A stretch of 64,000 nt of DNA, from assembly GCF_000715075.1 (NCBI RefSeq), contig NC_134080.1:39660758-39724757 (forward strand). The letters are read 5' to 3'. Below, in pieces: positions 26,500-49,839 of the stretch. The position numbers and the translations under genes are program-made. This stretch comes from Nicotiana tabacum (lineage: Eukaryota > Streptophyta > Magnoliopsida > Solanales > Solanaceae). Numbering within the stretch: position 1 is the stretch's first letter; each line of letters starts with the position of its first letter. The notes beneath the pieces are model-generated. The model was not told the origin of the DNA. It ran no database searches and saw only the letters and a list, made by a program, of their open reading frames with translations.

Positions 26500-26507
26500 T
26501 ATAAAAG
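26500..26507 (+). promoter_or_regulatory. TATA box of the Ogre LTR1
   Basis: TATAAAAG sits in the context GGCTATAAAAGAGGC. It is identical in LTR2 at 46779-46786. It would place the RNA start near 26530 and make U3 about 1.75 kb. Confidence 0.65.
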
Positions 26508-27589: not shown

Positions 27590-28205
27590 ATCCTTTTAAA
27601 ATAAAGACGAGATGAGCCTCGACAAAATAAAGAAAAAACGTACAAATTGCGGGGCCCTCGTTAAATGTATATATTGAAGCATTCAGTCCCCAAGGTGGGT
27701 CATTTAGCAAATCTCATGACCCTCCCAGAATAATAACGCGATAGTCTCTTTAAGCGCGTACTTAATAAACCTTACCTTCTTAAACTCGGGTGCACATTTA
27801 TGTGACCCAAATCCAAATCTCGACGGATTCGAAATGTATTTCTAATCACGGGTACATTGATTGTGACGTGGTTCGAGAGGCATATCCATGACGTCGCAAA
27901 TTCCTTTTAAAAGTAGAACGAGACGAGCCTCGTTAAACAAAAATGTACACAACTGCGGGGCCCTCTGACTGTATATATATTAAAACACTTAGAATTCGGG
28001 ACAGGCCGTTTAGCGAATTTTTCGGCCTTTCCCAAAACAACAATACGCTAGTTGCTTTAGGCGCGTCTTAATAATTTATTCTCCTTAATTCGGGTGCACA
28101 TTTATGTGACCCAAATCCAAATCTCAACCGAGTCGAAATATGTCAACAACCACGGGTGCATTGATGTAGCGTGGTTCGAAATATGTTTTCACGACGTTGC
28201 AAGTC
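27590..28205. repeat. Diverged 306-bp tandem duplication in LTR1
   Basis: Blocks such as GCGGGGCCCTC (27649 and 27955), GAGCCTCG and GGGTGCACATTTATGTGACC recur 306 bp apart. The last can form a stem (GGGT-G-CACAT/ATGTGACCC). LTR2 has the same duplication at about 47872-48483. Confidence 0.75.
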
Positions 28206-28570
28206 TTATAAAATAACAGTAAATGATAAAAGCGGTTAAAAGTTAAATTTTGCACATAAGTTCACTTGTATAAAATCAAATAATCAAGCCGAATATAACA
28301 GTTGAACGACCGTGCTAGAACCACGGAACTCGGGAATGCCTAACCCCTTCTCCCGGGTTAACAGAATTCCTTATCCGGATTTCTGGTACGCAGACTGTAA
28401 TATAGAGTCATTATTTTCCTCGATTCGGGATTAAAATTGGTGACTTGGGACACCCTAAATCTCCCAAGTGGTGACTCTGAAATAATTAAACAAATCCCGT
28501 TTCGATTGTCCTTTAATTGGAAAAACTCCCCTGCGCCCCTCGGGCGCGGAAAAAGGAGGTGTGACAGCTC

Positions 28571-28588
28571 TGGCGACTTTGCTGGGGA
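28571..28588 (+). other. Primer-binding site of the Ogre-like element
   Basis: TGGCGACTTTGCTGGGGA follows LTR1 after a four-base spacer. The copy after LTR2 (48853-48870) reads CTCTG where this has CTTTG. Ogre elements are reported to use an arginine tRNA; I cannot confirm the match here. Confidence 0.7.
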
Positions 28589-29560
28589 TCGGTGACCCAG
28601 AACCACTGGTTCAGGGTTAAGAATTCGAGCTTAGTGTAATTGTTATTATTTGGCTTTATTTATTATCTGATTTTATTACATGTTTTGAGCGTAATGTGCT
28701 AAATGCTGCTTTACTGCTTTGATATTGTTGGAACTGTACATACAAACTGTGCCGAAACCCTTCTCTTCTCTCTTGAGGAGTGCACGCTGGTCGTGACTTC
28801 TTTCTGTTAGTGTCATATACCAAAATAGAACGAGGATTCGGAGGAGTTGCAAAATCGGATGGCCTTTTGGTTACCGGTACACAGCTCCCATCCTTGGCCC
28901 AAGTCGTCCGCTCGGGTAAGCCAGGTCTAGAACAAATACCCAGGTTATGAACTTAGTATAACAAAGCCGCATGCCGAATCCCTAGTAGGAACATTTATTT
29001 GCATCATGTGCATTTGACTTAGGGGACTCAACACAGGGGTTGGGTCCGTCTAGGACTAGCAACCTGATGTGAAAAGACCATCCTGCTGCATCCTGCTTTC
29101 TTTATGCATTTACTTGTTTCAAGGCTTGCATGCTGACCGGTTTTTGAATAACGGATAAGGAGATAATTATTTTTGAAAGATCAATACCCAGAAAATGGTT
29201 AAAACTCTGCCAGAATTTTGAAAAAAAGAAAGAAAGAAAATGTGTGTCTTATTAATTTGTTTTAGTAAGGGTCTTTGATTCATTTCTAAGAGAAAAATAG
29301 CGTGTCTCCAAAATTCGGCTTATGCCTGAACTACGTCAGTTCGATTCTCGCAGGGTGCAAGATACGTAGACAACCCCCATCGGGCTCAACTTGTTTTTCA
29401 AAATATAGGTACAATCCAAATAACGAAAGTTTTTAAGGTAACATCGTACTTTTCAGAAACAACCAAAATTTCGTTTTTCTAGAAAAAATAGTGTGTCAAT
29501 TTGTGTATTTGAGTCCAATGAGTCTGGATCTTTGCTTAATCACCCCAATAAACATGCAGA
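28589..29560 (+). other. 5' untranslated leader of the Ogre-like element
   Basis: No coding was found. It contains the first copy of the CTACGT...ACGTAG structured motif (29331-29369). The second internal copy keeps this leader at 48871-49839. Confidence 0.7.
29331..29369 (+). other. Structured CTACGT/ACGTAG motif, copy 1
   Basis: Outer stem CTACGT (29331-29336) and ACGTAG (29364-29369). Inner stem 29346-29351 with 29357-29362 pairs at five of six positions. The segment GTTCGATTC also matches a Pol III B-box core. It lies in the leader before ORF1. Confidence 0.75.
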
Positions 29561-31594
29561 ATGAGCATGAGTCCAAGTTTGCCGGTAACAGTTAGAAGCA
29601 AAATCCCCCTGGAAGTGCGATTATGGTGGGAGGATTTGGAAAAGTCAGAGCAAGACAAGGTCAAACTGCACCTGGGAGGTTTGGTTGATTTGTTGAAAGT
29701 CAGGCCTCGGTGCGACATCATAAAGGCTTTGGTTACATTTTGGGATCCGGCCCACAACGTGTTCCGTTTCTCAGATTTTGAACTCACCCCAACCTTAGAA
29801 GAAATGGCGGGTTACATGGACGTCACTGAAGGTTTGAGACACAAATACCTGATCGCTCCAAGGGCTGTGAATTCACACAAATTCATGGATCTGTTGAAGA
29901 TAAGCAAAGGAGTCCCATACGCTGAACTGGATAGAGGTTTTTCTACCCTACGATTCATATACCAGAGGTACGGGAGCAAAGGAGGATTTAATGATCCAGA
30001 AAGTGGTATTTGCAGCAGGGGAAATCTGGTAAAATGGAATGAGCATAGGCGGTTCGCTTTTATGGTGGCATTTTTGGGCCTTGTGGTGTTTCCCCGAAAA
30101 GATAGAAATATCGACCTGAAGGTGGCTGGAATCGTCAAAATCCTGATTACCAACGATAAAAGCATCCTTGCTCCTATGATAATGTCAGAAATATACCGAG
30201 CCCTCACGGCTTGTAAAGCCGGAGCAGACTTCTTCGAAGGGTGCAACTTGTTGTTACAGATGTGGATGATCGAACACTTGTGTCACCATCCTCAGTATAT
30301 GCGCTACATGTCTACAAATGGGGGCTGCATCGAGGGTTATAGCCTAAGGGTTTCAGGTTTCCGATCACCGGGAGGGTTTGAAGAATGGATATCCTATCTC
30401 CGGGTTATCACCGCAGACCAAATAAACTGGACTTTGGGTTGGCTTTCTGTGGAAGAAATCATATACATGCCCGCCACTGGTCCTCACTTCCTCTTGATGG
30501 GACTCAGGGGTATTCAACCTTATGCCCCTTACAGGGTAATGAGACAGTTGGGAAGATGTCAAGTACTACACCCGGACGAAGATCTCAGCACTTATGCGGT
30601 CGAGGTCAGCAGTGACGGCCAATTTCCTGAAAAGACAGTTCGTTTCATATGGAGTGAATGCCAGTACTTGACGGCGAATACCCGGGTAAATGATGTGTCT
30701 AGGGGTGAAGTCTCGCCGGCCTATCTCACTTGGAATAACAAGAAGAACATTGCGAAACGGCCCACCAAACGGCCTCACCTCCAAGAATTTGTTGAGTCAT
30801 CGCAAGAACAATGGGACTGGCTCGCAAGAGAAGAAGGTTACCTGGTTGAAATCAGGAAGCTGAAGCGACAAGTTGAAAGGATTGTATTCGAAAACAACGT
30901 GCAAGTCGCCCAAGAGCAGGCTGAAAAAGACAAGCTAGCCCAAGAGAACCAAACCCTGAAGGCCCGCCTTCGACAAGCCAGTAAGAATAACATCAACCGA
31001 CAGAAGCGCTGCTCCGACGAAAGATTGATAGCCAGTTTGAGGAATCAGGTCATCCAGAGCCAAGAAGAATTAGACCAATCAGAGGCTTGCATAGCAAGGA
31101 TGAGGGTCAAATGGGCAGAAGGTACAATGGCCCGGAGGAAGCGCCTACAGCAAGTCATGAGGAATTGTGAACTGAGCGTCAAAGCAACAAAGGAAACAAA
31201 TTCTGCTCTGCAAAAGCGGATCTTCAAGCAAACTCAAGATGCCCAAGCCGACCGAAGACGCTATTACAATGCAATGACAAGGATGGAAAGGCAAATGGAT
31301 ATGTTCCAGGATCAGCTCGCCACCAATGCACAAACGCTAGGATTGAAAAGCCGACAGATAAGGCAATTGTTCGCAGAAAGGGACAACATTCGAGCAAGAA
31401 TTGACGAAATCGGGCATTACATCTACCTAAAATGTTTGGCATGCGAGCAAACACCTCGGGAAACCCTCATTTCTTCCATCATGGGCTGCGTCCACCGGAT
31501 TATGAACGAGTTGAAGAGCTTGCAAAGAGACCTTACACCTAGGGCCGCGAAAGGGCCGAAAGATGCCTCGTGGGTCCCTAAGTTGGAAAATTAG
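29561..31594 (+). CDS. Ogre ORF1 protein (plant mobile domain-like plus coiled coil)
   Basis: An uninterrupted 677-codon frame starts at the first ATG of the internal region. Residues about 1-430 resemble the plant mobile (aminotransferase-like) domain, with a FELTPTLEEMAGYM entry and repeated W/F-rich helices. Residues about 430-620 are a long Gln/Glu/Lys-rich coiled coil, and a short Cys-bearing tail ends at 31594. An extra ORF upstream of gag is a defining feature of Ogre elements; its function is unknown. It is the only full-length intact frame in the element. A near-identical truncated copy is at 49840. Confidence 0.82.
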   Translation: MSMSPSLPVTVRSKIPLEVRLWWEDLEKSEQDKVKLHLGGLVDLLKVRPRCDIIKALVTFWDPAHNVFRFSDFELTPTLEEMAGYMDVTEGLRHKYLIAPRAVNSHKFMDLLKISKGVPYAELDRGFSTLRFIYQRYGSKGGFNDPESGICSRGNLVKWNEHRRFAFMVAFLGLVVFPRKDRNIDLKVAGIVKILITNDKSILAPMIMSEIYRALTACKAGADFFEGCNLLLQMWMIEHLCHHPQYMRYMSTNGGCIEGYSLRVSGFRSPGGFEEWISYLRVITADQINWTLGWLSVEEIIYMPATGPHFLLMGLRGIQPYAPYRVMRQLGRCQVLHPDEDLSTYAVEVSSDGQFPEKTVRFIWSECQYLTANTRVNDVSRGEVSPAYLTWNNKKNIAKRPTKRPHLQEFVESSQEQWDWLAREEGYLVEIRKLKRQVERIVFENNVQVAQEQAEKDKLAQENQTLKARLRQASKNNINRQKRCSDERLIASLRNQVIQSQEELDQSEACIARMRVKWAEGTMARRKRLQQVMRNCELSVKATKETNSALQKRIFKQTQDAQADRRRYYNAMTRMERQMDMFQDQLATNAQTLGLKSRQIRQLFAERDNIRARIDEIGHYIYLKCLACEQTPRETLISSIMGCVHRIMNELKSLQRDLTPRAAKGPKDASWVPKLEN

Positions 31595-31781
31595 TTGATC
31601 GAGTCCTGGTCGTTTTGTTTGTTGTTTCCCCATATGTTGTTTTCTTTTCCTCAAACCAAGTTTGAAACCGAGGAGTCTGTACTATTGCTATTTTGTTTGA
31701 AGTAATGTGTAATAGCAAATTTTGATAATGAAATTAAGTGACTCCGGAAGAATTTCTATGTGTCTTTACTTTGAGGCAGAA

Positions 31782-31820
31782 CTACGCTTGGTCTGATTCA
31801 CGCGGGGACGTGATACGTAG
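31782..31820 (+). other. Structured CTACGT/ACGTAG motif, copy 2
   Basis: Outer arms CTACGC (31782-31787) and ACGTAG (31815-31820). The inner stem TCACG/CGTGA (31798-31802 with 31809-31813) is perfect and differs from the other copies. It is in the ORF1-gag intergenic region. Confidence 0.75.
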
Positions 31821-32132
31821 GCAATCCCCATAAGATTCGACCGCTTTTAATAAATAAAGAAAAGAAAATGTAAATAAAATAAAACGCAGGGTTTCGCAAA
31901 ATACTTTAAAGAGACGAATGAGCAAACCAGGATGACGCATGTTGTTTGAAGCAAAACATGTAGAAACGGTTAACTGCCTAGGTGCATTGCATCCTCTATG
32001 TGTTATGATTAAATCTGTTAAGCTCTAACGCTAACAAAGTTTGTTGTTGTCTGATATCAGACAGTTAGTGGTTAAAGAATTCTGGCAACACATTCATACC
32101 AAACCAGATCCAAAGGACCGGTAGCAACAAGC

Positions 32133-35100
32133 ATGACTACTTCGGAGAATAGCAACGAGGAAGAAAGGCCGATGAGCCAGTTGTTAAAAGAAGCAATGGA
32201 AAAGATTGAAAGGATGGGACTAGAAATGAATGCAATGCAACTAGCCCTAGCCAAAACCCAAAAGAGCCCCGAAACACTAGGACACATGCCGGAGTACCCT
32301 CACTCTGGCCCTTCCACAAGCCGCCCAAATCCCCTCTATCATCAAGAAAGAAGCCCTCATGATTCCCAAGCTCCACCACCCCATCAACCTCTCCCAACAC
32401 CCAACATTCCCATTTTTGTGGGACCTACATCAGCCCCTTTGCAGAGAACGACCAGTGAGCCATTGTTTCAGGCTCACGATACCCAATACTATCCCCCTGA
32501 GCCTACATTCCATGCACCCGAACCACAAGCTTACAATCCCCGTTTGGAAGTACCGGCAGAGATTGAGAAGCCGGTTAAGGCCCCTGAACAGGATGAAGTG
32601 TTGAGAAAGTTCAAAAGCCTGGAGCAATCCTTCAAGAACTTGCACGGGTTGGGCAATCAAGTCAGCGTGTCATACAAAGATCTGTGCCCTTTCCCAGACG
32701 TCCAACTCCCGGCTGGGTTCAAGATGCCCAAGTTTGATTTATATGAAGGGCACGGTGATCCCATGGCACATTTGCGGGGATTCTGTAGCAAAATGAGAGG
32801 GGCAGGAGGCAAGGACGAGCTTTTGATAGCTTATTTCGGCCAAAGTCTGAGCGGATCTGCACTGGAATGGTATACCAGGCAGGATTTCAGCAGGTGGTAC
32901 ACGTGGGATGATCTGGCGCAGGCTTTTGCAGGTCATTTCCAGTACAATCTGGAGATAGTCCCTGACCGTCTCACGTTATTGAGAACTGGGAAGAAACCCG
33001 GGGAAGGTTTTCGCGAGTTCGGGTTCCGCTGGAGAGAACAAGCAGCTAGAGTCGATCCTCCCATGAGAGAGGGAGAGATGGTGGACTATTTTTTGCAGAC
33101 ATTGGATCCAACCTACTTTGGTCACTTGGTGACAACGGTTGGAAAATCTTTCAACGAGGTGGTCAAAATAGGGGTCATGATAGAAGAGGGTTTGAGGTCT
33201 GACAAGATCTTGAACTATTCGGCACTCAAGGCCACAACCCAGGCCATTCAAAACGGCACGGGAGGTGCGTTGAGAAGAAAGAAAGAAGAGGTTGCCACGA
33301 TTGAGGCAGGCAGTTGGTCCAGGGCTGGCAGGCCACGCTACAACCAACCCAGACCTCACAGGTCAGAATACCCATACAGCCCACCACAAAATTTCTATCC
33401 ACCTCGAGAACCACATTGTTCCTGTACACCAAGCCCAGGCATACACTCAGCCTCCGGTTCGCCCACAATGGCGCGCACCGGCTCCCCAGAACATATATGC
33501 ACCACCACAAAACACCTACCCTCCACCAAGGGCATATAGAAACCCTTCAGGGGCAGGCTTCCGGGGAAATCCAGATGCTAGGAATGACAGGTTGCGGAAG
33601 CAAAGAACCTTCACGGAGCTGGGAGAAACCTACACCGCTTTGTTCCACAAGCTGTGGCAATTGGGTTTGGTTAGTCCTGTCCAGACTCGAGAACCAAATC
33701 CCCCACCTCAGAATGTAGATCGATCAATCAGTTGTGAATACTGTTCAGGGATGCTCGGGCACGATACCGAGAAGTGCTGGAAGTTAAGGCATGCCATACA
33801 TGATCTTATTGACACCAATAAGATCGAGGTCCAGACACCGGAGGCTCCTAACATCAACCAAAACCCACTGCCAGCGCACCACGAAACTCACATGATTGAG
33901 TTGGTGTGTGAGGGAGGAGAATTAAGAAAACCCTCACAAACAGTGATGATGATCCAGGCCGCCCCGCAAGAAGTCTTAACCAATGGAGGAACGAGTGTAC
34001 AGTCGCAGGGAGGAGGCATCAAGCCGGTAGTGATATTGGGAAAGAGCCCGTCCTCCATGACAAGCAAGCCCGAGCCAAGCAAGTTGGTAATACTAGGGAT
34101 CCTGCCCACACCGGCAGTCGTGTTGAAAGGGGTATGTAGAGAACGGGTGACCACAAAGCCTGTGGTCCAACTGCCGATGATTGACAGCAGGGCTGTGCCT
34201 TGGAAATATGAAAAGGCAGTGGTGACGTACAAAGGAAAACAGGTGGAAGAAGTCAGTTGTGAAGCGCAAGGGCTGACTCGATCAGGTCGATGTTTTGCTC
34301 CGGTGGAGCTAAGAAAAACCAACCCAGTGGCAACCAAAAAACCTGTGTCCGAGGAAGAGGCCGAAGAGTTCCTGAGGAAGATGAAAGTACATGACTATTC
34401 TATGGTCGAACAGCTGAGAAAAACACCGGCCCAGATCTCACTGTTGTCGTTGCTGATCTATTCTGAGGAGCATCGTCGGGCCCTGTTGAAGATACTGAAC
34501 GAGGCTCATGTACCCAGTGAGATTTCTGTAAACCACCTGGAAACCATTGCCAGCAAGATCTTCGAGGTGAACAGGGTAACATTCTCAGATGATGACCTGC
34601 CGATGGAAGGTACAGAGCATAACAAAGCTCTATACCTAGCTGTCAAATGTGAAGACTCGGTGGTAACTCGAGTATTGGTGGATAACGGCTCAAGCGCCAA
34701 TATTTGTCCATTATCCACCCTGGACCAGTTAAAGATTGACCGTGGATGAATCCTGGAGAATAGCATCTGCGTCCGGGGGTTTGACGGAAACGGAACAACC
34801 ATTGTGGGGGATGTTGTACTTAAACTGACCATTGGGCCAGTCCTGTTTACCATGGAATTCTAGGTGTTAGATGCCACAGTTTCTTATAACCTGCTGTTAG
34901 GACGACCCTGGATTCATGCAGCCAAAGCGGTGCCTTCCACCCTACATCAGACGGTGAAGTTCGAGTGGGAAAGACAAGAGGTCGTGTTGCACGGCGAGGA
35001 TACAACATTCACCATGGGCGGAACCATTGTACCTTTCATAGAGACCACTGATGACAAAGGTCCTTGGGTCTACCAGATTTTCAATACAGGGTCGGCCAAC

Positions 35101-35588
35101 AAAATTTCTGAAGGAGAAATCATCTCACACCCTAGGGTAGCTGCCGCAACAGTCATGATGGTTTCAGAAATGCTGGGAAACGGATTCGTGCCGGGAAAAG
35201 GCCTGGGAGTCGAGCTTCAAGGGATAGTCCAACCTATCTCCCTTCCTAAAAATCTGGAAACTTTCGGATTGGGGTTCAAACCAACCGCAGCAGACAGGAA
35301 GCAGGCGCGAAAAATGAAGAAGAGAGTCTGGTTTCTGCCTAAACCAGTACCACGCCTCTCAAGGTCTTTTGTCAAAGCAAGTGCCAAGGGGTCACCGGTC
35401 CCAAAGATTCGAGGACCTTTGATCGATATAAATGAAAACCTGAATCAAAGTTTTGAGAGGCTATTTGCGGATGTCAATACGGTGGAAGCTGGAGAAGGTT
35501 GCAGCAGAGCAGAGATACAATTTGTGGGGCCTGAGGCCAAGACCAACAATTGGACGGTTACTCCTCTTCCTGTCCGAGGGGAGTCTTG
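32133..35588 (+). pseudogene. Ogre gag-protease, exon before the intron
   Basis: The ATG at 32133 opens gag: a coiled N-terminus, a proline-rich stretch, then the capsid domain with FDLYEGHGDPMAHL and LEWYTRQDF (about codons 190-360). A one-base frame change near 33415 shifts reading to the frame of 33292-34749. That frame carries a zinc-knuckle-like CEYCSGMLGHDTEKCW and the protease motif VLVDNGSSANICPLS. Two stops break the protease: TGA 34747-34749 and TAG 34861-34863, with the same frame open after them to 35588. A glycine-rich GNGFVPGKGLG patch near 35180 resembles a G-patch. Gag would form particles and protease would cut the polyprotein. Confidence 0.85.
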
Positions 35589-35765
35589 GTAGTAGGCTTT
35601 GATTAATGTTTTGTTTGTTTGTTTGTCCGGATTATTCAAGGGTGTAATCCAAATTTTTACTTTCGTTTTTGTAAAAGTGTGAACCCTTTTATCCCGCAAT
35701 GTTTAATAAAGCTCTTTTCTTTTGTTCCATTTTAATTTTGTTTTGTTCTTTTTCTTTCTGAACAG
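35589..35765 (+). other. Candidate Ogre intron between protease and RT
   Basis: GTAGTAGG at 35589 and CTGAACAG ending at 35765 bound 177 bp with a T-rich 3' part. The upstream frame would otherwise end at TAG 35590-35592. Using these sites joins it to the pol frame without a shift. A short intron here is a known feature of Ogre elements. Confidence 0.75.
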
Positions 35766-38700
35766 TTCTCTTTTTACTGGTTCTAATGACATGGCATGCA
35801 CAGCGGATCTTCGACCTAGTCTAATAAATCAATCTGAAACCGACTCAATGATGCAAGAGGTCGTTTGTGACGATGCATTTGAATGTGACGAAGGTGAAGC
35901 CTTCGAAGAAATAAACCGAGAATTGTGCCAATTTGAAGAGAAACCCAAGCCTAACCTAAATGACACCGAGGCTGTGAACCTAGGGAACGCTGATAACGTC
36001 CAAGAGACCAAAATTAGCATCCACATTGAGCCGAATGTCAGAGCAGAATTGATCAAAATTCTCAGGGAATTCAAAGATGTTTTTGCCTGGTCATACGATG
36101 ATATGCCTGGATTAAGCACCAATTTAGTGGTTCACAAATTACCCACTGACCCGGCATACCCTCCGGTCAAGCAAAAGCTAAGGAAATTTAAAACAGAAAT
36201 GAGTGTAAAGATCAAAGAAGAAGTGATTAAGCAGTTGCAATCGAAGGTCATTCGGGTCACTCGGTATCTCGAGTGGTTGGCCAATGTGGTACCAGTCCCA
36301 AAGAAGGATGGAAAAATCAGGGTGTGCGTTGACTACCGCAACCTCAACAAAGCAAGTCCCAAGGACAATTTTCCGCTACCCAACATTCATATCCTGATCG
36401 ACAATTGCGCTGGGCGCGAGATCAGATCCTTTGTGGATTGCTATGCGGGTTATCATCAGATCCTAATGGACGAGGAGGATGCTGAGAAGACAGCGTTTAT
36501 TACGCCATGGGGAACCTACTACTATCGGGTAATGCCGTTCGGATTAAAGAATGCTGGGGCAACATACATGCGAGCAATGACTGCTGTGTTTCATGACATG
36601 ATACATAAGGAAATTGAGGTGTACGTCGATGATGTGATCATCAAATCTTGGCGTCAGGAGGACCATGTGGCAGACCTAAGGAGATTTTTCCAAAGACTCC
36701 GAAGGTATGACATCAAGCTTAACCCGGCCAAATGCGCATTCGGGGTTCCATCAGGAAAGTTGCTAGGATTCATCGTCAGTCGACGGGGGATTGAGTTAGA
36801 CCCATCCAAAATTGAATCCATCCGAGATTTGCCACCGCCAAGGAACAAAACAGAGGTAATGAGTTTGCTGGGTAGACTCAATTACATCAGCAGGTTCATC
36901 GCTCAACTCACAGCAACTTGTGAGCCCATATTTCGGCTGCTGAGAAAGGATGCTGCGGTAGGTTGGACGGCAGAATGTCAGGAGGCTTTCGACCAAATCA
37001 AAGGGTATCTGTCTAATCCACCCGTATTGGTCCCGCCTAAGCCCGGGAAGCCCCTAATTCTTTACCTGACGGTCTTGGAAAATTCATTTGGTTGTGTGTT
37101 GGGGCAACATGACGACACAAGAAGGAAGGAGCAAGCCATCTACTATCTTAGCAAGAAATTCACAGTGCATGAGGTCAAGTACACTCAACTCGAGAAAACA
37201 TGCTGCGCCCTAACTTGGGTAGCTCAGAAGTTAAAGCACTACCTGTCTTCATATACTACTTATCTCATATCCCGCTTGGACCCATTGAAGTATATCTTTC
37301 AGAAACCTATGCCCACGGGAAGGTTGGAAAAGTGGCAAATTCTGCTCACAGAGTTTGATATCATCTACGTAACGAGGACGGCCATGAAAGCCCAAGCACT
37401 GGCAGACCATTTGGCAGAGAATCCCGTTGATGAAAAATACGAGCCCTTAAGAACGTATTTTCCTGACGAAGAGGTGATGCATACGAATGAGTCGGAATTA
37501 CCTGAGGAACCGGGTTGGAAGCTTTTCTTCGATGGAGCTGCAAACGCAAAGGGGGTTGGAACAGGAGCAGTACTCATTTCTGAAACAGGACGGCATTATC
37601 CTGTTACGGCTCAACTACGCTTCTGTTGCACCAACAATATGGCCGAGTATGAGGCTTGCATTCTGGGTTTGCGCCTGGCTGCTGACATGGATGTCCAAGA
37701 CGTCTTGGTCTTGGGAGACTCGGACCTCTTGATACATCAAATTCAGGGAGAATGGGAAACACGAGATCTAAAACTCGTACCATACCGACAATGCTTGCAT
37801 GATCTGAGCAAGCAATTTCGATCGGTGAAGTTCAAACACATCCCGAGAGTTCACAATGAGGTTGCGGATGCCTTAGCCACCTTAGCATCAATGCTGCACC
37901 ACCCTGACAAAATGTATGTTGATCCTCTACACATCCAGGTCCGTGATCAGCACGCCTACTGCAATGCCGTAGAAGAAGAAGCAGATGGCAAAACCTGGTT
38001 TCATGATATCAAGGAATACCTCAGGATGGGGATATATCCGGAACATGCCTCTGGAGACCAAAAAAGAGCCCTTCGGCGTTTGTCGAATGGTTTCTTCCTC
38101 AGTGGGGGAATATTGTACAAAAGAACCCCGGATTTGGGATTGTTGAGATGCATAGATGCCAGTCAAGCAACGACGGTTATGGCTGAGGTACATGCTGGAG
38201 TTTGTGGACCACACATGAGCGGGTATGTGTTGGCAAGAAAGATCCTTCGAACAGGGTGTTATTGGCTCACCATGGAACACAACTGTATCACTTTCGTGAG
38301 GAAATGCCATCAGTGCCAGATACATGGAGATTTGATTCATTCTCCGCCAACAGAGTTACATACGATGTCAGCACCCTGGCCGTTTGTAGCATGGGGCATG
38401 GATGTCATTGGGCCCATCGAGCCAGCAGCATCCAACGGTCATAGGTTCATTCTAGTGACCATTGATTACTTCACCAAATGGGTTGAGGCTAAAACCTTCA
38501 AATCAGTAACCAAGAAGGCAGTGGTGGACTTTGTTCACTCCCATATCATCTGCAGATTTGGGATCCCAAAAGTGATCATCACGGATAACGGGGCGAATCT
38601 TAATAGCAGCTTGATGAGAGAGGTATGCCACCAATTCAAGATTACACACCGCAATTCCACCCCATATCGTCCTAAGGCAAATGGAGCAGTCGAAGCAGCC

Positions 38701-39242
38701 AATAAGAATATCAAGAAGATACTGCGAAAAATGGTGGAAGGGTCCAGACAATGGCACGAGAAATTACCCTTTGCTTTGTTGGGTTACCGCACTACCGTCC
38801 GGACTTCCATAGGCACAACTCCCTATTTGTTGGTGCATGGAACTGAGGTTGTGATACCAGCGGAGGTCGAAATTCCGTCCCACCGAATTGTCGCTGAAGC
38901 CGGGTTGATGATGATGAATGGGTCCAAGCTCGATTGGAGCAATTGAGCCTAATAGATGAGAAAAGATTGGCAGCAGTGTGCCATGGTCAGCTGTACCAGA
39001 AGAGAATGGCAAAAGCGTATAATAAGAAGGTGCGCCCCAGGAAGTTTGAAGTAGGGCAGCTGGTATTGAAAAAGATCCTCCCACATCAGGTCGAGGCAAA
39101 AGGCAAATTCGCCCCAAATTGGCAAGGGCCTTATATCGTGACCAGAGTATTGTCCAATGGTGCTTTGTGTTTGACAGATGTCGAAGGTAGATGCGTCGAC
39201 ATGGCTATCAATTCAGATGCAGTCAAGAGATATTATGCGTAA
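35766..39242 (+). pseudogene. Ogre pol: RT, RNase H, archaeal-type RNase H, integrase
   Basis: A long frame runs to 38946. RT has RVCVDYRNLNKASPKDNFPLP, MPFGLKNAGATY and the catalytic YVDD. RNase H follows with QAIYYLSKKF; its first acidic residue appears as LEN where relatives have an Asp. A second RNase H of the archaeal type contains LFFDGAANAKG, MAEYEA and HNEVADALA. Integrase has a zinc-binding HAGVCGPHM...CHQC, WGMDVIGP and TDNGANLNSS with the Glu in GAVEAANK. A one-base loss near 38905 shifts the last part to the frame of 38934-39242, ending KRYYA. Apart from that it is nearly complete. It would copy the RNA and insert the DNA. Confidence 0.87.
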
Positions 39243-39424
39243 TTTCTTTAATTATGGCAATTTTTTTGGTTGGTTTGTTTGTATTTGGCATTTATTGGAT
39301 AATGAGATGACGGAGGCAATTCTTTCTTCTATCCAAACACGTTTAACCCTTGCTTCCCCCTTTGAGCCTTAAGTTATTCTTTCAATACCCTTCTTTTGGA
39401 ATCACTAATGGGAAAGATATGAAA

Positions 39425-39510
39425 AAAAAGAAAAGAAAAGAAAAAGAAAAAGAAAAAGAAAAAGACATGAAAAAATGAAAAGAAGGAAAAGGAAAAAAAA
39501 AAGATAAAAT
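39425..39510 (+). repeat. Purine-rich simple repeat (AAAAG)n in the Ogre 3' UTR
   Basis: A run of AAAAG/AAAAAG units with few interruptions, 180 nt after the pol stop. Confidence 0.85.
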
Positions 39511-39535
39511 CACAAGAAATACAAAACCGTGGGAA

Positions 39536-39571
39536 CTACGTTTGACCTGATTCCTCAAAGAGGATACGTAG
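39536..39571 (+). other. Structured CTACGT/ACGTAG motif, copy 3
   Basis: Outer stem CTACGT (39536-39541) with ACGTAG (39566-39571), perfect. Inner stem TCCTC-AAA-GAGGA (39552-39564), perfect. It is in the 3' UTR between pol and the satellite array. Confidence 0.78.
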
Positions 39572-39588
39572 GCGCCTCACGGCTCGGT

Positions 39589-39720
39589 CATAGTGTGCAT
39601 CATAATAAATATAGGATGCATAATGTACATAGTGTGCATCATAATAAATATAGGATGCATAATGTACATAGTGTGCATCATAATAAATATAGGATGCATA
39701 ATGTACATAGTGTGCACAAT
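39589..39720. repeat. Three 39-bp tandem repeats in the Ogre 3' UTR
   Basis: Units beginning CATAGTGTGCATCATAAT start at 39589, 39628 and 39667, with a fourth partial unit at 39706. The three are identical or nearly so, so the duplication is recent. The repeated reading frames on both strands are by-products. Confidence 0.88.
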
Positions 39721-39728
39721 ATGGCACA

Positions 39729-40977
39729 ATGTGCGTAATGCGCATAGCTCAACATAAGTGTAAAGAAATAAAATTCCCCAAGCAAGAAATCTGGGGCAGA
39801 GGTTATGTTTTAAGTTCCAACAAAGATTTGATTCCTAAAGTTGTAGCACATCACCTTCAAGTTGTTTTTATTTTTATAAGCCTTTCTTTAACCCCACACC
39901 AAAACCAACATCAACATCCAAAAGACCTCCCGATCAATGTTCGAGAGATGCCAAGTCCGGCGAATAAGGCCGAGAATAATACACTGATCCCCAGCAAAGA
40001 AGAGGATCGTAAGACTGGAAATGAATTGATGGTCAAGGGAATCTCCAGAAAGGAGAGACGTATCTACAACACCCCGATTTCCCGAAAGAAATAAAATGAG
40101 AGAGTCTTATCGGTGAAGACCTTCACAGGCACCGAGAGGCGATGTAAGATGAGGGATATGAAATGAGAGAGTCTTATTGGTGAAAACCTTCACAGGCACC
40201 ATAAGGCGCCGGGAGATGAGAGAAATGAGAGAGTCTCATTAGTGAAAACCCCTCGAAGGGAACTATGAGGCGACAAGACAGATCAGCAAAAGCTACAACA
40301 TCCGAATCGGACACTCATTTATCATCCCCAGCAAGTCAGACCATCGGGCAAATCGATTGATACAAATAGACTGGGTCGGGAATCTATGGTGCACGTCATG
40401 ATCACGGGGACCAGTCATGTCCTCCAGATAAGTTCTTTTGAGTTTCTCCTCCCCACCAAATATGGGTTCAGAAAGATTTTTTCCCTCAAGCTTTTATTTT
40501 CTCTTCCTAAAATTTGTCTTGAAAAGAATTTTTCAAAGCTTACTACCAGAAACCGGAGGGGAATTCACCCAATGCAAGGACCGTGCCCGGCAATTTTGGA
40601 GGGAGTGAGCTCCTAAAGGGAGTGGTTTCGGGAGTTAAAAGCAGACTCCCACAGAATATGCTTCAAGAGAAAGCGGAAAGGGGGATTAATTTAAAGCCAA
40701 TCCCCAGCAGGCTAGAGACCCCCAACAGGCAACTTTGCCCGCCAACCAATTATGGGGACATAGAGCAAGAAAAGGGGAAGAGAGGGAAAAATCATCCGCC
40801 AGAAAGGCACCCTCTACCACCACGATCAAAACTAACTAAATCCTTTTATCTGCTGCAGGAAAACAAAGAATTGATAAGGGCAACTAAACGCAACGCCAGG
40901 GGAGTCACCAAAAACCGGGGCAGAAAATTTTCTGCCGATTGTCGAAAATTTTCTCGGAAGAACGGGGAAGCAATTTT
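39729..40977 (+). other. Ogre 3' UTR segment with a diverged 65-bp triplicate
   Basis: No gene is supported. At about 40093, 40159 and 40223 the phrase ATGAGAGAGTCT(T/C)ATT recurs with a following GTGAAAACC block and a GGCG end, about 65 bp apart. The rest is A/G-rich untranslated sequence. Confidence 0.6.
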
Positions 40978-43900
40978 AATACTTTTAAGTTCTAGGTCGC
41001 CCACAAGTATAATGCGGGAATACTTTAAGTTCTAGGTCGCCCGCCAGTATAATGCGGGAATACATTTAAGTTCTAGGTCGCCCACCAGTATAATGCGGGA
41101 ATACATTTAAGTTCTAGGTCGCCCACCAGTATAATGCGGGAATACATTTAGGTTCTAGGTCGCCCACCAGTATAATGCGAGAATACTTTTAAGTTCTAGG
41201 TCGCCCACCAGTATAATGCGGGAATACATTTAAGTTCTAGGTCGCCCACCAGTATAATGCGGGAATGCTTTTAAGTTCTAGGTCGCCCACCAGTATAATG
41301 CGGGAATACTTTTAAGTTCTAGGTCGCCCACCAGTATAATGCGGGAATACTTTTAGGTTCTAGGTCGCCCACCAGTATAATGCGGGAATACATTTAAGTT
41401 CTAGGTCGCCCACCAGTATAATGCGGGAATACATTTAAGTTCTAGGTCGCCCACCAGTATAATGCGGGAATACATTTAAGTTCTAGGTCGCCCACCAGTA
41501 TAATGCGGGAATACTTTTAAGTTCTAGGTCGCCCACCAGTATAATGCGGGAATACTTTTAAGTTCTAGGTCGCCCACCAGTATAATGCGGGAATACATTT
41601 AAGTTCTAGGTCACCCACCAGTATAATGCGGGAATACATTTAAGTTCTAGGTCGCCCACCAGTATAATGCGGGAATACATTTAAGTTCTAGGTCGCCCAC
41701 CAGTATAATGCGGGAATACATTTAAGTTCTAGGTCGCCCACCAGTATAATGCGGGAATACATTTAAGTTCTAGGTCGCCCACCAGTATAATGCGGAAATA
41801 CATTTAAGTTCTAGGTCGCCCACCAGTATAATGCGGGAATACATTTAAGTTCTAGGTCGCCCACCAGTATAATGCGGGAATACTTTTAAGTTCTAGGTCG
41901 CCCACCAGTATAACGCGGGAATACATTTAAGTTCTAGGTCGCCCACCAGTATAACGCGGGAATACATTTAAGTTCTAGGTCGCCCACCAGTATAATGCGG
42001 GAATACATTTAAGTTCTAGGTCGCCCACCAGTATAATGCGGGAATACATTTAAGTTCTAGGTCGCCCACCAGTATAATACGGGAATACTTTTAAGTTCTA
42101 GGTCGCCCACCAGTATAATGCGGGAATACATTTAAGTTCTAGGTCGCCCACCAGTATAATGCGGGAATACATTTAAGTTCTAGGTCGCCCACAAGTATAA
42201 TGCGGGAATACATTTAAGTTCTAGGTCGCCCACCAGTATAATGCGGGAATACATTTAAGTTCTAGGTCGCCCACCAGTATAATGCGGGAATACATTTAAG
42301 TTCTAGGTCGCCCACCAGTATAATGCGGGAATACATTTAAGTTCTAGGTCGCCCACCAGTATAATGCGGGAATACATTTAGGTTCTAGGTCGCCCACCAG
42401 TATAATGCGGGAATACATTTAAGTTCTAGGTCGCCCACCAGTATAATGCGGGAATACTTTTAAGTTCTAGGTCGCCCACCAGTATAATGCGGGAATACAT
42501 TTAAGTTCTAGGTCGCCCACCAGTATAATGCGGGAATACATTTAAGTTCTAGGTCGCCCACCAGTATAATGCGGGAATACATTTAAGTTCTAGGTCGCCC
42601 ACCAGTATAATGCGGGAATACATTTAAGTTCTAGGTCGCCCACCAGTATAATGCGGGAATACTTTTAAGTTCTAGGTCGCCCACCAGTATAATGCGGGAA
42701 TACATTTAAGTTCTAGGTCGCCCACCAGTATAATGCGGGAATACATTTCAGTTCTAGGTCGCCCACCAGTATAATGCGGGAATACTTTCAAGTTCTAGGT
42801 CGCCCACCAGTATAATGCGGGAATACATTTAAGTTCTAGGTCGCCCACCAGTATAATGTGGGAATGCTTTTAAGTTCTAGGTCGCCCACCAGTATAATGC
42901 GGGAATGCTTTTAAGTTCTAGGTCGCCCACCAGTATAATGCGGGAATACTTTTAAGTTCTAGGTCGCCCACCAGTATAATGCGGGAATACTTTTAAGTTC
43001 TAGGTCGCCCACCAGTATAATGCGGGAATACTTTTAAGTTCTAGGTCGCCCACCAGTATAATGCGGGAATACATTTAAGTTCTAGGTCGCCCACCAGTAT
43101 AATGCGGGAATACATTTAAGTTCTAGGTCGCCCACCAGTATAATGCGGGAATACTTTTAAGTTCTAGGTCGCCCACCAGTATAATGCGGGAATACATTTA
43201 AGTTCTAGGTCGCCCACCAGTATAATGCGGGAATACATTTCAGTTCTAGGTCGCCCACCAGTATAATGCGGGAATACTTTTAAGTTCTAGGTCGCCCACC
43301 AGTATAATGCGGGAATATTTTTAAGTTCTAGGTCGCCCACCAGTATAATGCGGGAATACTTTTAAGTTCTAGGTCGCCCACCAGTATAATGCGGGAATAC
43401 ATTTAAGTTCTAGGTCGCCCACCAGTATAATGCGGGAATACATTTCAGTTCTAGGTCGCCCACCAGTATAATGCGGGAATACTTTCAAGTTCTAGGTCGC
43501 CCACCAGTATAATGCGGGAATACATTTAAGTTCTAGGTCTCCCACCAGTATAATGCGGGAATACTTTTAAGTTCTAGGTCGCCCACCAGTATAATGCGGG
43601 AATACTTTTAAGTTCTAGGTCGCCCACCAGTATAATGCGGGAATACATTTAAGTTCTAGGTCGCCCACCAGTATAATGCGAGAATACATTTAAGTTCTAG
43701 GTCGCCCACCAGTATAATGCGGGAATACATTCAAGTTTTAGGTCGCCCACCAGTATAATGCGGGAATACATTTAAGTTCTAGGTCGCCCACCAGTATAAT
43801 GCGGGAATACATTTAAGTTCTAGGTCGCCCACCAGTATAATGCGGGAATACATTCAAGTTCTAGGTCGCCCACCAGTATAATGCGGGAATACATTTAAGT

Positions 43901-44024
43901 TCTAGGTCGCCCACCAGTATAATGCGGGAATACATTTAAGTTCTAGGTCGCCCACCAGTATAATGCGGGAATACATTTAAGTTCTAGGTCGCCCACCAGT
44001 ATAATGCGGGAATACATTCAGCTC
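40978..44024. repeat. 41-bp satellite array, about 74 copies, in the Ogre 3' UTR
   Basis: The unit holds TTCTAGGTCGCCCACCAG, then TATAATGCGGGAATAC, then a variable ATTTAAG or TTTTAAG link. The core tctaggtcgc occurs at 40991, 41031 and 41072, and last at 43983. The step from 41072 to 43983 is exactly 71 units of 41 bp, so there is no net length change. Most units differ by zero to two bases. A rare pair of variants (ATTTCAG then CTTTCAAG) recurs at 42741 and 43438, exactly 17 units apart, showing higher-order copying. Tandem repeats in the 3' UTR of Tat/Ogre elements are a known source of satellite DNA. Confidence 0.95.
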
Positions 44025-44578
44025 TAGATTTTGGAATCAGTCACCCCACTTGAAGACGGAAGGTTACAACAGAGAGCCCCAAGCAGGAAAAACAATAAAA
44101 TCCCCAGTGCCAAGAAGCAGAAGGCTGCAAAAGCAAGCGCACATTCAAAAGGAAGAAGGAACACGTCTTAGAAGAAGCAGTTTGAGAACGCTATGGCATG
44201 CCCAACATAACAATTCTGATGAAAAGCCATACCACTGAAGAAACCATTGAAAGATTTAAAGAAGAAAGCCATGTTCCCAGCAAATCAAGCAAAGTGATGA
44301 GAACTGACATTCAGAAAAGGTGAAGGACCAGCATCATCTCGAAGATCACAAAATAAAGGCGTCAGAGGAAAGCGTTAGCCGACAAGAAAGCAAGACAACA
44401 AGAACAAGTTGGAGATAGATGAGATCTCATACTCTAGCTTAACTTCTTGTTTTTCCTTTCAAGATCAATGTAACAAGGAGATCAGTGAGCGGTAGCATCC
44501 TACAGCAGCATGCAACAGAGCACAACAGCAGCAGGCACTACAGTCACACGGTAGTCCCAGCTACCAAAATTTCCCGAA
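44025..44578 (+). other. Ogre 3' UTR between satellite and last structured motif
   Basis: A/G-rich sequence without a supported gene. It ends in motif copy 4. Confidence 0.6.
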
Positions 44579-44617
44579 CTACATTGACCTGATTCCTGTT
44601 CAGCCCAGGATATGTAG
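44579..44617 (+). other. Structured CTACGT/ACGTAG motif, copy 4 (compensated)
   Basis: The outer arms are CTACAT (44579-44584) and ATGTAG (44612-44617), so both sides changed and pairing is kept. Inner stem TCCTG/CAGGA (44594-44598 with 44606-44610) is perfect and again different. It is about 130 bp before LTR2. Confidence 0.75.
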
Positions 44618-44735
44618 GAAACCTCTGAAGCAAAGGTTCGGTCAAATCTTTTTCAAAAAAATGCTTCGCACGGAGTATTCGGACGGGCAAAAATCACTCG
44701 CTTTATCTTTGCGCGAAAACCCTTCGTGTCTTCGT

Positions 44736-44750
44736 GCAAAGAGGGGCAGC
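44736..44750 (+). other. Polypurine tract of the Ogre-like element
   Basis: GCAAAGAGGGGCAGC abuts the TGTAAGC start of LTR2. Confidence 0.75.
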
Positions 44751-47700
44751 TGTAAGCACGTGATTTTTGCTTCACGAGCAATCACTCCCAAAGGAAAACA
44801 AAAAATAATAGTGACAGATGACCCCGCAGTACAAATTTTTCATGACATGTATTGCTAGTCATTTGTGGGTCTGTCCATTTTTTGCATTTTATCATTATCA
44901 AACAAAATACAAAAATATGTGTCATTAAAAGAAAGTTCAAAATATATATATGCATCGTTCGTTCTAGGTTGTGATTTAACTTACTTAAACATTTTAATTT
45001 GGTATGATAATTACGTTGAAGTGCTACATTGTTATTTGTTTTAATTTGTTTTATTATTTATTTTGTTTTGTTATTTTTCATTTTTTTCTCTCTTTAAATT
45101 AGAAAACAAAAGAAAAAGAGTTGAAATCAATTTGGGCCCAAAAATAAGACAAAAACAGGCCCAAACTAGCACTCAAATCCGGTCCAAACCAGGCCTGCCC
45201 TGACCACCTCCCGAAACGACGCCGCATCATGCGTCTGATCTGGGCCGTTCAAACTCTCGATCCAACGGCTCAGGATCTCTTTCAGCAACCCATTTTCAAA
45301 CCCGACCCAATAACCGGTCTGACCCACCCCTCACTTAAACCAAACGACCCCGTTTAACTACCAAACGACCCCGTCTCATTTCTCACCCTCAGATCCAAGC
45401 CGTTGAGATCATCTGATCTAACGGCTCAGATCCAATCCCATAGACCATATATAAACCTTCCCTTACACCCACGCCCCCTATACCAACACCCCACCCCTTC
45501 GTCCCCAAGCTCAAACCCGGACCTCCCATTAGAAACCCTAGCCACCCCCGTCTCCCTCGCCATTAAAGCCGGCGGCATGGACGCCGGTGGCCACCTTCTG
45601 AACACCCTAGGACCACCGCACTCTCCTGAACGTGGATCTACTATCCATTTGCCTCGAATCACTTTCGTTCGTCTCGAATCTTCATTTGAAGATTTGAGTC
45701 GAACCCGGACCTATGCCAAGTTACCCCATCTTCATACCAGACACTCCCCTGACCTTCCTCGTGACCAAACCAAGCTTGGTTTGGTCCGAATCTACCCACA
45801 ACTCCCTAAAAATCAGATCTGGAGATCCAAAACCTAGAACACTAATAGCCTTGGAATCCGGACGGTCTTAACAAGGGTTTGAGGTCTAATAGACCTTAAT
45901 CAAGGTGTTCTCATGTGAGAACACCCTGATTAAAGTTTGTTCCGCCTCAAGAGTTCGAAGTTGAGTCAGATTTGGGTCATTTTGATTTCAAACTCTTTTG
46001 GTAAGTTTTCCTTTCTTTTGTTTTAGTTCTAATTAAGTTGTCAGCATGTTTCGTTGTGTTTGTTTGTTATTTTGTTATTTTTCATTCGGATTTCTTCCAT
46101 CTTTGTTAAAGGCCTTTTTATTTGGTCAATTGTCTTCTGTTTGTGTTCTGAATATACCCTGTGATATACATGCTCATCAATTAGATTAGTCGTCAAACGA
46201 GTTTAATTCATATAAGTTCCCAGTGTTTGAACAAATTTGTCTGAAGTCATTCGGGACTCTATACGTGTTGTTTGTATGAACGATTGATTGTTATGTGTTA
46301 CGATTAATATAGTCGAGTCGATATATGTCGTCAATTAGTTTCAATTGTTAATGGTAACAACTTGATTCGTATTGCTTATTTCTGTTGTGATCGTATTTGA
46401 GTCCCATTAGGAACTGAATTGTATTGCCTATTGATTTTGTTCAAATTGAATTAAAGAACATCTAGGGGAAAGGTTATAATGGCAGATTCAGACTTTGATT
46501 TTAAAACACGATGCCATTTGGTTTAGACCGTGGGCAGCATGTGTATGGTTAGCTTTAAGGAATTAAAATAATTGGACAGCATGTGCTGTCAGATTATATT
46601 CCTACTGCCCATACTTTGGTTAAATAAACAAGTGATTAGTACATTTTAACAACAAAAGAGAGAGGGGCTGTCAGGGATTTGATGGGAGTTTTGTTTATTT
46701 AAAAGAAGTGAGTGGAAAAACAACGAGGGAGGGGCAATTTTGAGTTGTAAAACAGACTGTAAAGTGTTAAGGTTAGGCTATAAAAGAGGCAGACCTTCCA
46801 TTAGAAAGGGGGTTCATTTTTTTTGAGTCTGGAGAGATCTTGGGAGTAAGAAAAACCGAAAAGGAAAAACAGAAATAAATTTCAGAACATTGTGAATGAG
46901 TATGGTCTAGAAGAAACTGTGCAAGAGTCCAGTTTGATCAGGTTTTCTGTGGGGTTTTGTTTTTCCTGTTGTCTGCCAAGATTCCTTGTGGTCATTGGAT
47001 TTCTGTTGCTGTTACATTCAACATTCTGGGCTGTTGTTTCCTACTCTGTTCTTTTTCTGGGATTGTTCATTTGTTGCTCGAGTCCTTGCCGAGCTTCACC
47101 ATTATTGGCTGATTGTTTGTTGCTGTGTTGTTGCTATGAATCTGCTGTTGCTGTTGTTTGCTGTGTGCTACTCAGCTGATCTTTTCCTTCTTCTTCTTCT
47201 GTTCCTCTACATCAGGTACACAACCAAGGCACTATTAAATGTAATCGGAACATTGAGCATGAATGCAAAAAAGGAAAAGACTTGAAGTTGATTTTCATAC
47301 ATATATTGTTATATTAGATATCATGTATTGTATGATAATTTTCATTCTTGTGTTGACAGTCGAAGCAGCTTGTATGCCTAGTGTATATCAATATAAGTTA
47401 GCTAAATGGTAGTTTACATATGTATGCTGATAGGTGATAATATGCTCAATAAGATAGGTTGCATCTCAGATTTTAGTTTACTTTGCAGTATATGTTGTAA
47501 TGTATGCAAACTGTACATCATGGATTAAGTTCTTCCTTTTTAGATTGATGGTCTCCTACAACTAGTAAACCACCTGTTAAGACAAAGAACATCAAACTTG
47601 CAATCTCAACCTCATAAAGGTCGAGTTCAGGCCAAAACAGGCCAAGCCGGCCTGCTTCGAACGAACAGTGACCCAGGTCTGGCCTATTGCGCATGGGCTA

Positions 47701-48848: not shown

Positions 48849-49839
48849 GCTCTGGCGACTCTGCTGGGGATCGGTGACCCAGAACCACTGGTTCAGGGTT
48901 AAGAATTCGAGCTTAGTGTAATTGTTATTATTTGGCTTTATTTATTATCTGATTTTATTACATGTTTTGAGCCTAATGTGCTAAATGCTGCTTTACTGCT
49001 TTGATATTGTTGGAACTGTACATACAAACTGTGTTGAAACCCTTCTCTTCTCTCTTGAGGAGTGCACGCTGGTCGTGACTTCTTTCTGTTAGTGTCATAT
49101 ACCAAAATAGAACAAGGATTCGGAGGAGTTGCAAAATCGGATGGCCTTTTGGTTACCGGTACACAGCTCCCATCCTTGGCCCAAGTCGTCCGCTTGGGTA
49201 AGCCAGGTCTAGAACAAATACCCAGGTTATGAACTTAGTATAACAAAGTCGCATGCCGAATCCCTAGTAGGAACGTTTATTTGCATCATGTGCATTTGAA
49301 TTAGGGGACTCAACACAGGGGTTGGGTCCGTCTAGGACTAGCAACCTGATGTGAAAAGACTATCCTACTGCATCCTGCTTGCTTTATGCATTTACTTGTT
49401 TCAAGGCTTGCATGCTGACCGGTTTCTGAATAACGGATAAGGAGATAATTATTTTTGAAAGATCAATACCCAGAAAATGGTTAAAACTCTGCCATAATTT
49501 TGAAAAAAAAAGAAAGAAAATGTGTGTCTTATTAATTTGTTTTAGTAAGGGTCTTTGATTCATTTCTAAGAGAAAAATAGTGTGTCTCCAAAATTCGGCT
49601 TATGCCTGAACTACGTCAGTTCGATTCTCGCAGGGTGCAAGATACGTAGGCAGCCCCATCGGGCTCAACTTGTTTTTCAAAATATAGGTACAATCCAAAT
49701 AACGAAAGTTTTTAAGGTAACATCGTACTTTTCAGAAACAACCAAAATTTCGTTTTTCTAGAAAAAATAGTGTGTCAATTTGTGTATTTGAGTCCAATGA
49801 GTCTGGATCTTTGCTTAATCACCCCAATAAACATGCAGA
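48849..49839 (+). other. Second Ogre leader, with primer site and structured motif copy 5
   Basis: It repeats 28567-29560 almost exactly. The primer site is TGGCGACTCTGCTGGGGA (48853-48870). The structured motif is at 49611-49649 with the same stems as copy 1. Confidence 0.85.

Follow-up and report, generated by a model that had tools for sequence, protein, structure and literature searches.

Results

A pseudoknotted RNA module in the non-coding segments of a tobacco retrotransposon

The 64,000-nucleotide window analysed here (Nicotiana tabacum, NC_134080.1, positions 39,660,758 to 39,724,757) contains a long terminal repeat (LTR) retrotransposon that, from its layout and general knowledge of the group, we take to be an Ogre element. 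Four of its non-coding segments carry a module which, judged by comparison of its copies, almost certainly folds as a nested double pseudoknot RNA. A preliminary description of this DNA had noted a block of 36-39 nt. That length was an underestimate: once a second hairpin and a pseudoknot tail are counted, the copies in the window measure 58-70 nt. When copies were compared together with their 3' flanks, the block was seen to be the 5' half of a module that measures 58-82 nt with its 3' flank. Four helices were recognized: the outer stem P1, the inner hairpin P3, a second hairpin P4, and P2, in which the 5' bulge of the first hairpin pairs with the tail. The strand order is P1a-P2a-P3a-P3b-P1b-P4 hairpin-P2b and, because P2 crosses P1, the arrangement is a pseudoknot.

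P1 is near-fixed in sequence, with TACGTA lying within its 3' arm in most copies. The second outer arm is mostly followed by GCA and then by the P4 hairpin, whose letters vary (AACC/GGTT, AATC/GATT, ACCC/GGGT, GCC/GGC and AACCT/AGGTT were seen). Pairings seen in P2 are TGACC/GGTCA, TGACT/AGTCA, TGATC/GATCA, GGTC/GACC, GGTT/AACC, AGTT/AACT and GGCC/GGCC; the host-genome loci L056 and L015 are among the few with poor P2 pairing. The near-invariant core consists of GAACTACGT, TGAT beside P3, a T before P1b, ACGTAGGCA and a C before P2b. In the 26 rows of alignment A4 (described below), A2, G18, A19, T20, T41 and G48 are each present in 26, C49 in 22 and C69, the base before P2b, in 24.

All five blocks previously reported, at 29331, 31782, 39536, 44579 and 49611 on the plus strand, were confirmed in the sequence. 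A loose regular expression run over both strands of the whole window returned these five and one spurious match at 63722, and none of the module copies overlaps an LTR or a frame of at least 150 aa. Each was scored with a search model, R1, built on P1 and P3 without P2 or P4. Copy 1 (29328..29391, plus strand) lies in the leader, between the primer-binding site (PBS) and open reading frame 1 (ORF1), and scores 54.5 bits at 29328-29380; it has P1 at 29331-29336/29364-29369, an imperfect P3, a P4 that is imperfect around CCC..GGG, and P2 AGTT/AACT (29388-29391). Copy 2 (31779..31842, plus strand; 63.4 bits) occupies the spacer from the end of the ORF1 frame (31594) to the gag frame (32076), with P4 AATC/GATT and P2 GGTC/GACC (31839-31842). 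Copy 3 (39533..39590, plus strand; 58.0 bits) is in the early 3' untranslated region (UTR), 586 nt past the end of the pol frame (38946). Its P1 is formed by 39536-39541/39566-39571, its P3 by 39552-39556/39560-39564 around an AAA loop, its P4 by GCC-TCAC-GGC at 39574-39583, and its P2 by TGACC (39543-39547) with GGTCA (39586-39590). Copy 4 (44576..44645, plus strand; 56.2 bits), with P4 AACCT/AGGTT and P2 TTGACC/GGTCAA, precedes the 3' LTR, starting 175 nt upstream of LTR2 (~44751). Copy 5 (49608..49670, plus strand; 53.9 bits; P4 AGCCC/GGGCT, P2 AGTT/AACT) is in the leader after LTR2, the same site as copy 1.

The inner stem had been described as differing between sites while always remaining paired. 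The three stems TCACG/CGTGA (31782, copy 2), TCCTC/GAGGA (39536, copy 3) and TCCTG/CAGGA (44579, copy 4) are as described, but a C-A mismatch is present at 29331 and 49611; in copies 1-4, 19 of 20 inner-stem cells pair. Similarly, the outer arms CTACGT...ACGTAG were reported for every copy except the fourth, but the arm at 31782 reads CTACGC and the innermost P1 pair is lost there. The two-sided change of the outer stem to CTACAT/ATGTAG in copy 4 is real in the sequence.

Paired positions change together across divergent Ogre families

Covariation was counted in alignment A4, which holds 26 distinct copies, picked for diversity from the 50 available, from divergent Ogre families of the one host genome plus one stray copy from a presumed hAT transposon (see below); copy 5 was included and copy 1 left out. 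Four post-pol rows are off by one in P4 and the hAT tail is misaligned, so the P4 and P2 counts are slightly low. Over the four helices, 94.6% of 460 cells pair, against 84.8 ± 0.8% in shuffles and 16-42% with slid partners. Cells changed on both sides number 61 (shuffles, 21.9 ± 4.0), and two-sided changes occur at 11 of the 18 pairs (7.3 ± 1.2 in shuffles), a count reached by 1 of 500 shuffles. For P2 alone, 96.2% of 104 cells are paired (slid partners, 3-45%), with 28 two-sided cells against 10.7 ± 3.1 and two-sided changes at all four pairs. The corresponding figures are 93.3% of 104 cells and 20 against 6.2 ± 2.0 for P3, and 90.6% of 96 cells and 10 against 4.6 ± 1.9 for P4. P1 has one pair with two-sided changes, and its innermost pair is lost in five rows.

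We also examined P2 in a check that uses no alignment. 36 of 38 distinct copies were paired, where the shuffle mean was 30.9 and 36 was reached by 1 of 5000 shuffles, although the check is weak in that many copies share GACC. Two copies were missed: L056, for which the wrong bulge was parsed and which in any case pairs poorly in P2, and the hAT copy, with a P2 beyond the range searched.

Base-pair covariation, proposed as a test in the preliminary description, is above shuffles overall among the divergent Ogre families of this genome, and the suggestion of selection on shape made there is supported and strengthened by the two-sided changes in P2, P3 and P4. It had allowed for either an RNA or a DNA cruciform. 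Since P2 crosses P1 and covaries, and a cruciform would need no P2, the pairing evidence favours RNA and the cruciform is disfavoured.

Several observations weigh against this reading of the fold. P1 and the first two pairs of P3 are near-invariant, hence they provide little covariation evidence, and the pattern used to fetch 30 of the loci (L034-L063) itself fixed P1 and part of P3. Because copies in one site class share descent, the cells counted cannot be treated as independent events. Further pair types are no more numerous than in shuffles for all helices together, for P2 or for P3, and within a single helix shuffles often yield as many pairs changed on both sides (52 of 500 for P2, 445 of 500 for P3 and 25 of 500 for P4). 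Single-sequence folding energies of the five window copies are ordinary (z from -1.07 to +0.39), while that of the hAT copy stands out (z = -3.33); minimum-energy folding of this kind leaves out pseudoknots. The evidence for the fold is comparative, not thermodynamic, and folding of single sequences by itself would have missed it. Lastly, an alternative helix, YYT/AGG (CCT/AGG; columns 16-18 with 47-49 of alignment A2), which cannot form together with part of P1, is likewise paired, in 97% of cells. Its pairing is kept mostly through G-U changes, and the module may switch between two states.

Abundance and placement in the host genome

In the 3,996,098,646 bases of the host genome, the exact pattern ACTACGTN{3,8}GATTCN{6,26}ATACGTAGG gave 11,842 + 11,669 = 23,511 matches and its reversed control 0 + 0. 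The variant ACTACAT...ATATGTAGG gave 7,516 + 7,431 = 14,947 matches (control, 0 + 0), and the mismatched combination ACTACAT...ATACGTAGG (A-C) gave 621 + 524 = 1,145 (control, 1 + 0). The arm CTACAT is accordingly found with ATGTAG 14,947 times versus 1,145 times with ACGTAG, a difference to which shared descent contributes.

Copy number was estimated from twenty 10-kb stretches spaced evenly along one contig (200 kb). The R1 search found 8 copies in 6 of the 20, which extrapolates to ~1.6 x 10^5 copies per genome (Poisson 95% ~0.7-3.2 x 10^5; one contig sampled). An earlier loose scan of the sample had returned 9 matches, one of them the antisense of another, versus 5 in the reversed control, and the R1 search was used instead. 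The full searched set comprised the window, the 20 sampled stretches, the 30 search loci and five others (56 sources, 395,976 bases), including 22 sequences used to build the model. Scores fell into two groups: 50 copies reached at least 45.9 bits, and two matches (L013 and L017) at or below 14.5 bits were taken as chance and dropped.

The preliminary description placed the module outside coding regions, and this was borne out: none of the 44 copies in fetched host-genome loci overlaps a tblastn match to the window proteins. Such a match lies near 30 of the 44 copies, leaving 14 without, and all 30 are in coding-strand orientation. Each of the four sites (leader, ORF1-gag spacer, after pol, before the 3' LTR) has stems of its own that persist from one divergent Ogre family to another, with classes assigned by stems and neighbours. 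The leader class has stems of the TCTCAC/GTGAGA type and the spacer class TCACG/CGTGA or TCATG/CATGA. The after-pol class has CCTC-AAA-GAGG, or CC-GAAA-GG in a family whose pol shows ~70-75% identity in the main matches, and the class before the 3' LTR has CTACAT/ATGTAG. In L015 and L027, a copy of this last class stands beside a purine tract and what is presumed to be an LTR start, which differs from that of the window.

Several loci carry module copies and little or no coding sequence. In L039, L059, L060 and L062, a spacer-type and an after-pol-type copy lie 1.2-1.4 kb apart without a coding match in ~3 kb, and L046 has three copies, likewise without a coding match in ~3 kb. L016, a 10-kb locus chosen by place, has three copies and a single weak gag/pro-like match. 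We read these loci as putative internally deleted, non-autonomous Ogre derivatives.

A copy downstream of a presumed hAT transposase frame

When 84,980 bacterial and archaeal genomes were scanned with the pattern, two matches were obtained. One (L001) lies inside a Prevotella coding frame and was rejected as a module. The other (L002), judged real, is on contig JAFUBK010000065.1 of a roe-deer gut metagenome-assembled genome, where bacterial genes are followed by a 656-aa frame (5' end open) that has Pfam matches to the hAT dimerisation domain (PF05699, 1.9e-21) and hAT RNase-H (PF14372, 2e-9). Near an SSB-like frame the contig (L002/L004) switches to plant-like hAT DNA, and this public genome probably contains an assembly chimera there. 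We infer that the contig is chimeric with plant DNA and that the frame is a presumed plant hAT transposase.

The motif begins 52 nt past the transposase stop codon. It was located via P1, GATTC and the 3' arm only, and it also has P3 TCCTC/GAGGA, P4 CTTAATT/AATTAAG and P2 GGCCTT/AAGGCC. When the hAT UTR was compared with the window and the loci, the 25 blast matches listed all fell in the T-rich part past the motif. The module probably occurs in an unrelated transposon class besides Ogre; as its shape is also kept while the stem letters change, it is probably an undescribed RNA control element. This conclusion is tempered by the fact that 113 of 20,000 dinucleotide-shuffled versions of the hAT tail also form both P2 and P4, and that the case is a single copy in a chimeric contig.

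The carrier element in the window

The 5' LTR of the carrier extends from 24762 to 28567 on the plus strand, its 3' boundary being approximate, and is followed by a PBS-like sequence, TGGCGACTTTGCTGGGG, starting at ~28573 on the same strand. Between copies 1 and 2 lies the ORF1 frame (29552..31594, plus strand, measured stop to stop), which contains DUF7745 / plant mobile domain matches (PF24924, 3.2e-27; PF10536, 8.1e-15). The gag-pro and RT-RNaseH-aRH-INT frames (32076..38946, plus strand) separate copies 2 and 3 and match RVT_1, RT_RNaseH, RVT_3 and rve; in the gag frame, Retrotrans_gag scores 20.6 bits, under its 24.1 cut-off. The Ogre/Tat clade is characterized by an extra pre-gag ORF with a plant mobile domain, by aRH beside RT, and by INT (PMC6317226, in the part cited). 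The carrier has this layout, with the extra pre-gag ORF and with RT, aRH and INT in that order by Pfam.

Window self-blastn aligns 24762-26295 with 44751-46286 at 99.2% over 1.5 kb (LTR1 versus LTR2) and 26292-31403 with 46571-51682 at 98.9% over 5.1 kb. The LTRs start at ~24762 and ~44751, and LTR2 continues into a second leader and ORF1. Positions 24762-51683 thus form a tandem LTR-internal-LTR-internal arrangement, with leader and ORF1 repeated after LTR2 and similarity ending at ~51682. The tract AAAGAGGGGCAG lies at 44738-44749, directly 5' of the 3' LTR start. It or a near form also abuts the presumed 3' LTR start in L015 and L027, which belong to families with other LTRs, and we read it as a polypurine tract (PPT) common to families with different LTRs.

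After copy 3 the sole frame is one of 170 aa at 40523, without a Pfam match. The 3' UTR between copies 3 and 4 also contains a 41-bp tandem array at 40978-44018 (74 copies, 97% matches); tandem arrays are known from Tat/Ogre 3' UTRs, according to the cited part of PMC7004042. A second non-coding block at 40084-40276 includes tandem units of ~67 nt (40094-40250). Of the 30 search loci, at least 23 have a match to this block, coding-free loci among them, and it may be another conserved cis element.

Discussion

Relation to known structured RNAs

Rfam 15 returned no match at gathering scores for the whole window. For six 120-nt module stretches searched at E<=10, the only match was DENV_SLA on the other strand (E 9.5, 15 bits against a cut-off of 50.5), which we take as chance. 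A likeness to the thiamine pyrophosphate (TPP) riboswitch (CCTGAT...GTAGG) was dropped, with no TPP match in Rfam at E<=10, as was a tRNA-derived origin, for which ARAGORN reported 0 genes. In viral contigs there were no full-pattern matches, three half-pattern matches judged to be chance, and no confirmed relative of the pol. The preliminary description knew of no account of the motif, and we found none among the records listed from the open-licence PMC literature, including searches with the motif letters as text.

The strand order of hepatitis delta virus (HDV)-like ribozymes is P1a-P2a-P3a-P3b-P1b-P4-P2b, the same as that of the module, whose P2, P3 and P4 covary. These ribozymes share its nested double pseudoknot, being described as 'nested double-pseudoknotted' with the catalytic C first in J4/2 (PMC10879173, in the portion cited). 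In the module, the C directly before P2b is the first base of the joint only where P4 is extended. The module differs in that P4 and P2 are joined by very few nt, P2a and P3a are separated by four fixed nt, no Rfam family matches and several copies lie in UTRs. We do not file it as HDV-like, since so short a joint does not allow comparison and none of the family models matches.

Other systems resemble the module in part. The plant-virus xrRNA-D, an Xrn1-resistant RNA, has helices P1 and P2 and a covarying pseudoknot that blocks Xrn1 (PMC6299227). By the same source, an xrRNA halts a 5'-3' exonuclease in vitro and loses this ability when its pseudoknot is broken. Like xrRNA-D and coremin RNAs, the module is small, plant-associated and pseudoknotted; as far as the cited portion goes, strand order and core seem different, and the transposable element (TE) module has an extra hairpin inside its pseudoknot.

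Elements for nuclear expression (ENEs) related to that of the plant TE Evade occur in other plant transposons. The Evade ENE shields its own RNA from deadenylation (PMC12501189, portion cited). It is likewise a structured RNA of plant TE transcripts; ENEs have U-rich internal loops that form a triple helix with poly(A), whereas the module lacks these and has an internal loop made of the P2a strand and TGAT opposite a single T. The MusD MTE and IAP RTE of mouse elements, which like the module are structured TE RNAs and of which the MTE has a pseudoknot, serve to export unspliced RNA (cited text of PMC12786077). Sireviruses are plant LTR retrotransposons with repeated conserved non-coding motifs (PMC2829016). 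The part of that source cited concerns Ty1/copia elements, whose motifs are palindromes at the DNA level with a CGG-CCG core, several PPTs and, where the PPT meets the LTR, an inverted repeat.

Possible roles of the module

We give roughly an even chance to the explanation taken as a whole, a structured RNA module with a host-directed role in RNA fate. The role itself, as an element that promotes export of long TE transcripts or protects them from decay, is put forward tentatively, at somewhat less than even probability. The module would work as RNA within the element transcript; once folded, it would be read by a host factor or would block a host nuclease, and long TE transcripts would thereby be exported or spared decay. 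Precedents for such roles are the Evade ENE, the MusD MTE and the plant-virus xrRNAs described above. We prefer a host-directed role on two grounds: one copy is in the 3' UTR of a hAT, a DNA transposon that uses neither Gag nor particles nor reverse transcription, and other copies are present in Ogre-like loci with no recognizable coding sequence. Together these argue that the role is not tied to translation or Gag alone. On the other side, loci L034-L063 were fetched by the motif, so the coding-free loci among them give no retention rate.

The main rival, next after the RNA-fate reading, is a packaging or dimerisation signal, which we consider unlikely. The repeated copies would be Gag sites on the genomic RNA, kept by trans-mobilised derivatives, and both the four sites in the window's element and the copies in loci without coding matches fit this. 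A review of Ty1 (PMC4974528, in the passages cited) describes a pseudoknot at the 5' end of the genomic RNA with a major Gag binding site, and scattered RNA sites that may contribute to packaging; by the same passages, a role of that pseudoknot in encapsidation could not be demonstrated. The hAT copy would have no use for such a signal.

Translation control, in which the leader and spacer copies would affect how ribosomes scan or reinitiate for ORF1 and gag, is improbable. Copies 1 and 2 do precede ORF1 and gag, and Xrn1-resistant coremin RNAs stall scanning ribosomes (PMC10520033, in the part cited). However, copies 3 and 4 follow the pol frame, with only the 170-aa frame after copy 3, the hAT copy follows the transposase stop, and loci without coding matches hold copies.

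A self-cleaving ribozyme of HDV-like topology, cutting 5' of P1, is slightly less probable again. The shared strand order agrees with this, as does the C that immediately precedes P2b in 24 of the 26 rows, and HDV-like ribozymes are present in other retrotransposons (cited portion of PMC4035085). The P4-P2 joint, however, is mostly 1-2 nt (3 in the hAT copy), four nt between P2a and P3a are fixed, no credible Rfam match appears up to E=10 over the full module, and cuts at four sites would presumably destroy the genomic RNA.

That the copies have no present function and are paralogous sequences inherited with the element is very improbable: many genomic copies are probably decaying relics and site classes are shared through descent, but stems are altered on both sides by site and family with pairing kept. 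Least probable of all is a DNA-level signal, either a cruciform or a protein site around the TACGTA core; it would account for the near-fixed P1 and the TACGTA in most 3' arms, but P2 crosses P1 and covaries, P3 and P4 change letters while staying paired, and copy 4 has no ACGT in either arm.

Implications

The module may represent an undescribed class of plant RNA, acquired by class I (Ogre) and class II (hAT) elements, that engages one host RNA pathway, at ~10^5 copies and in multiple dosage per element; this is plausible, if short of probable. Little seems to be known of conserved RNA folds in plant LTR retrotransposons. The module is compact and its pairing model precise, so that export, decay, packaging and cleavage are testable by break/restore changes in a short reporter. 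It also provides a marker by which Ogre derivatives that lack coding sequence can be located. If it is common to unrelated transposons, it would point to a shared host pathway exploited by selfish RNAs.

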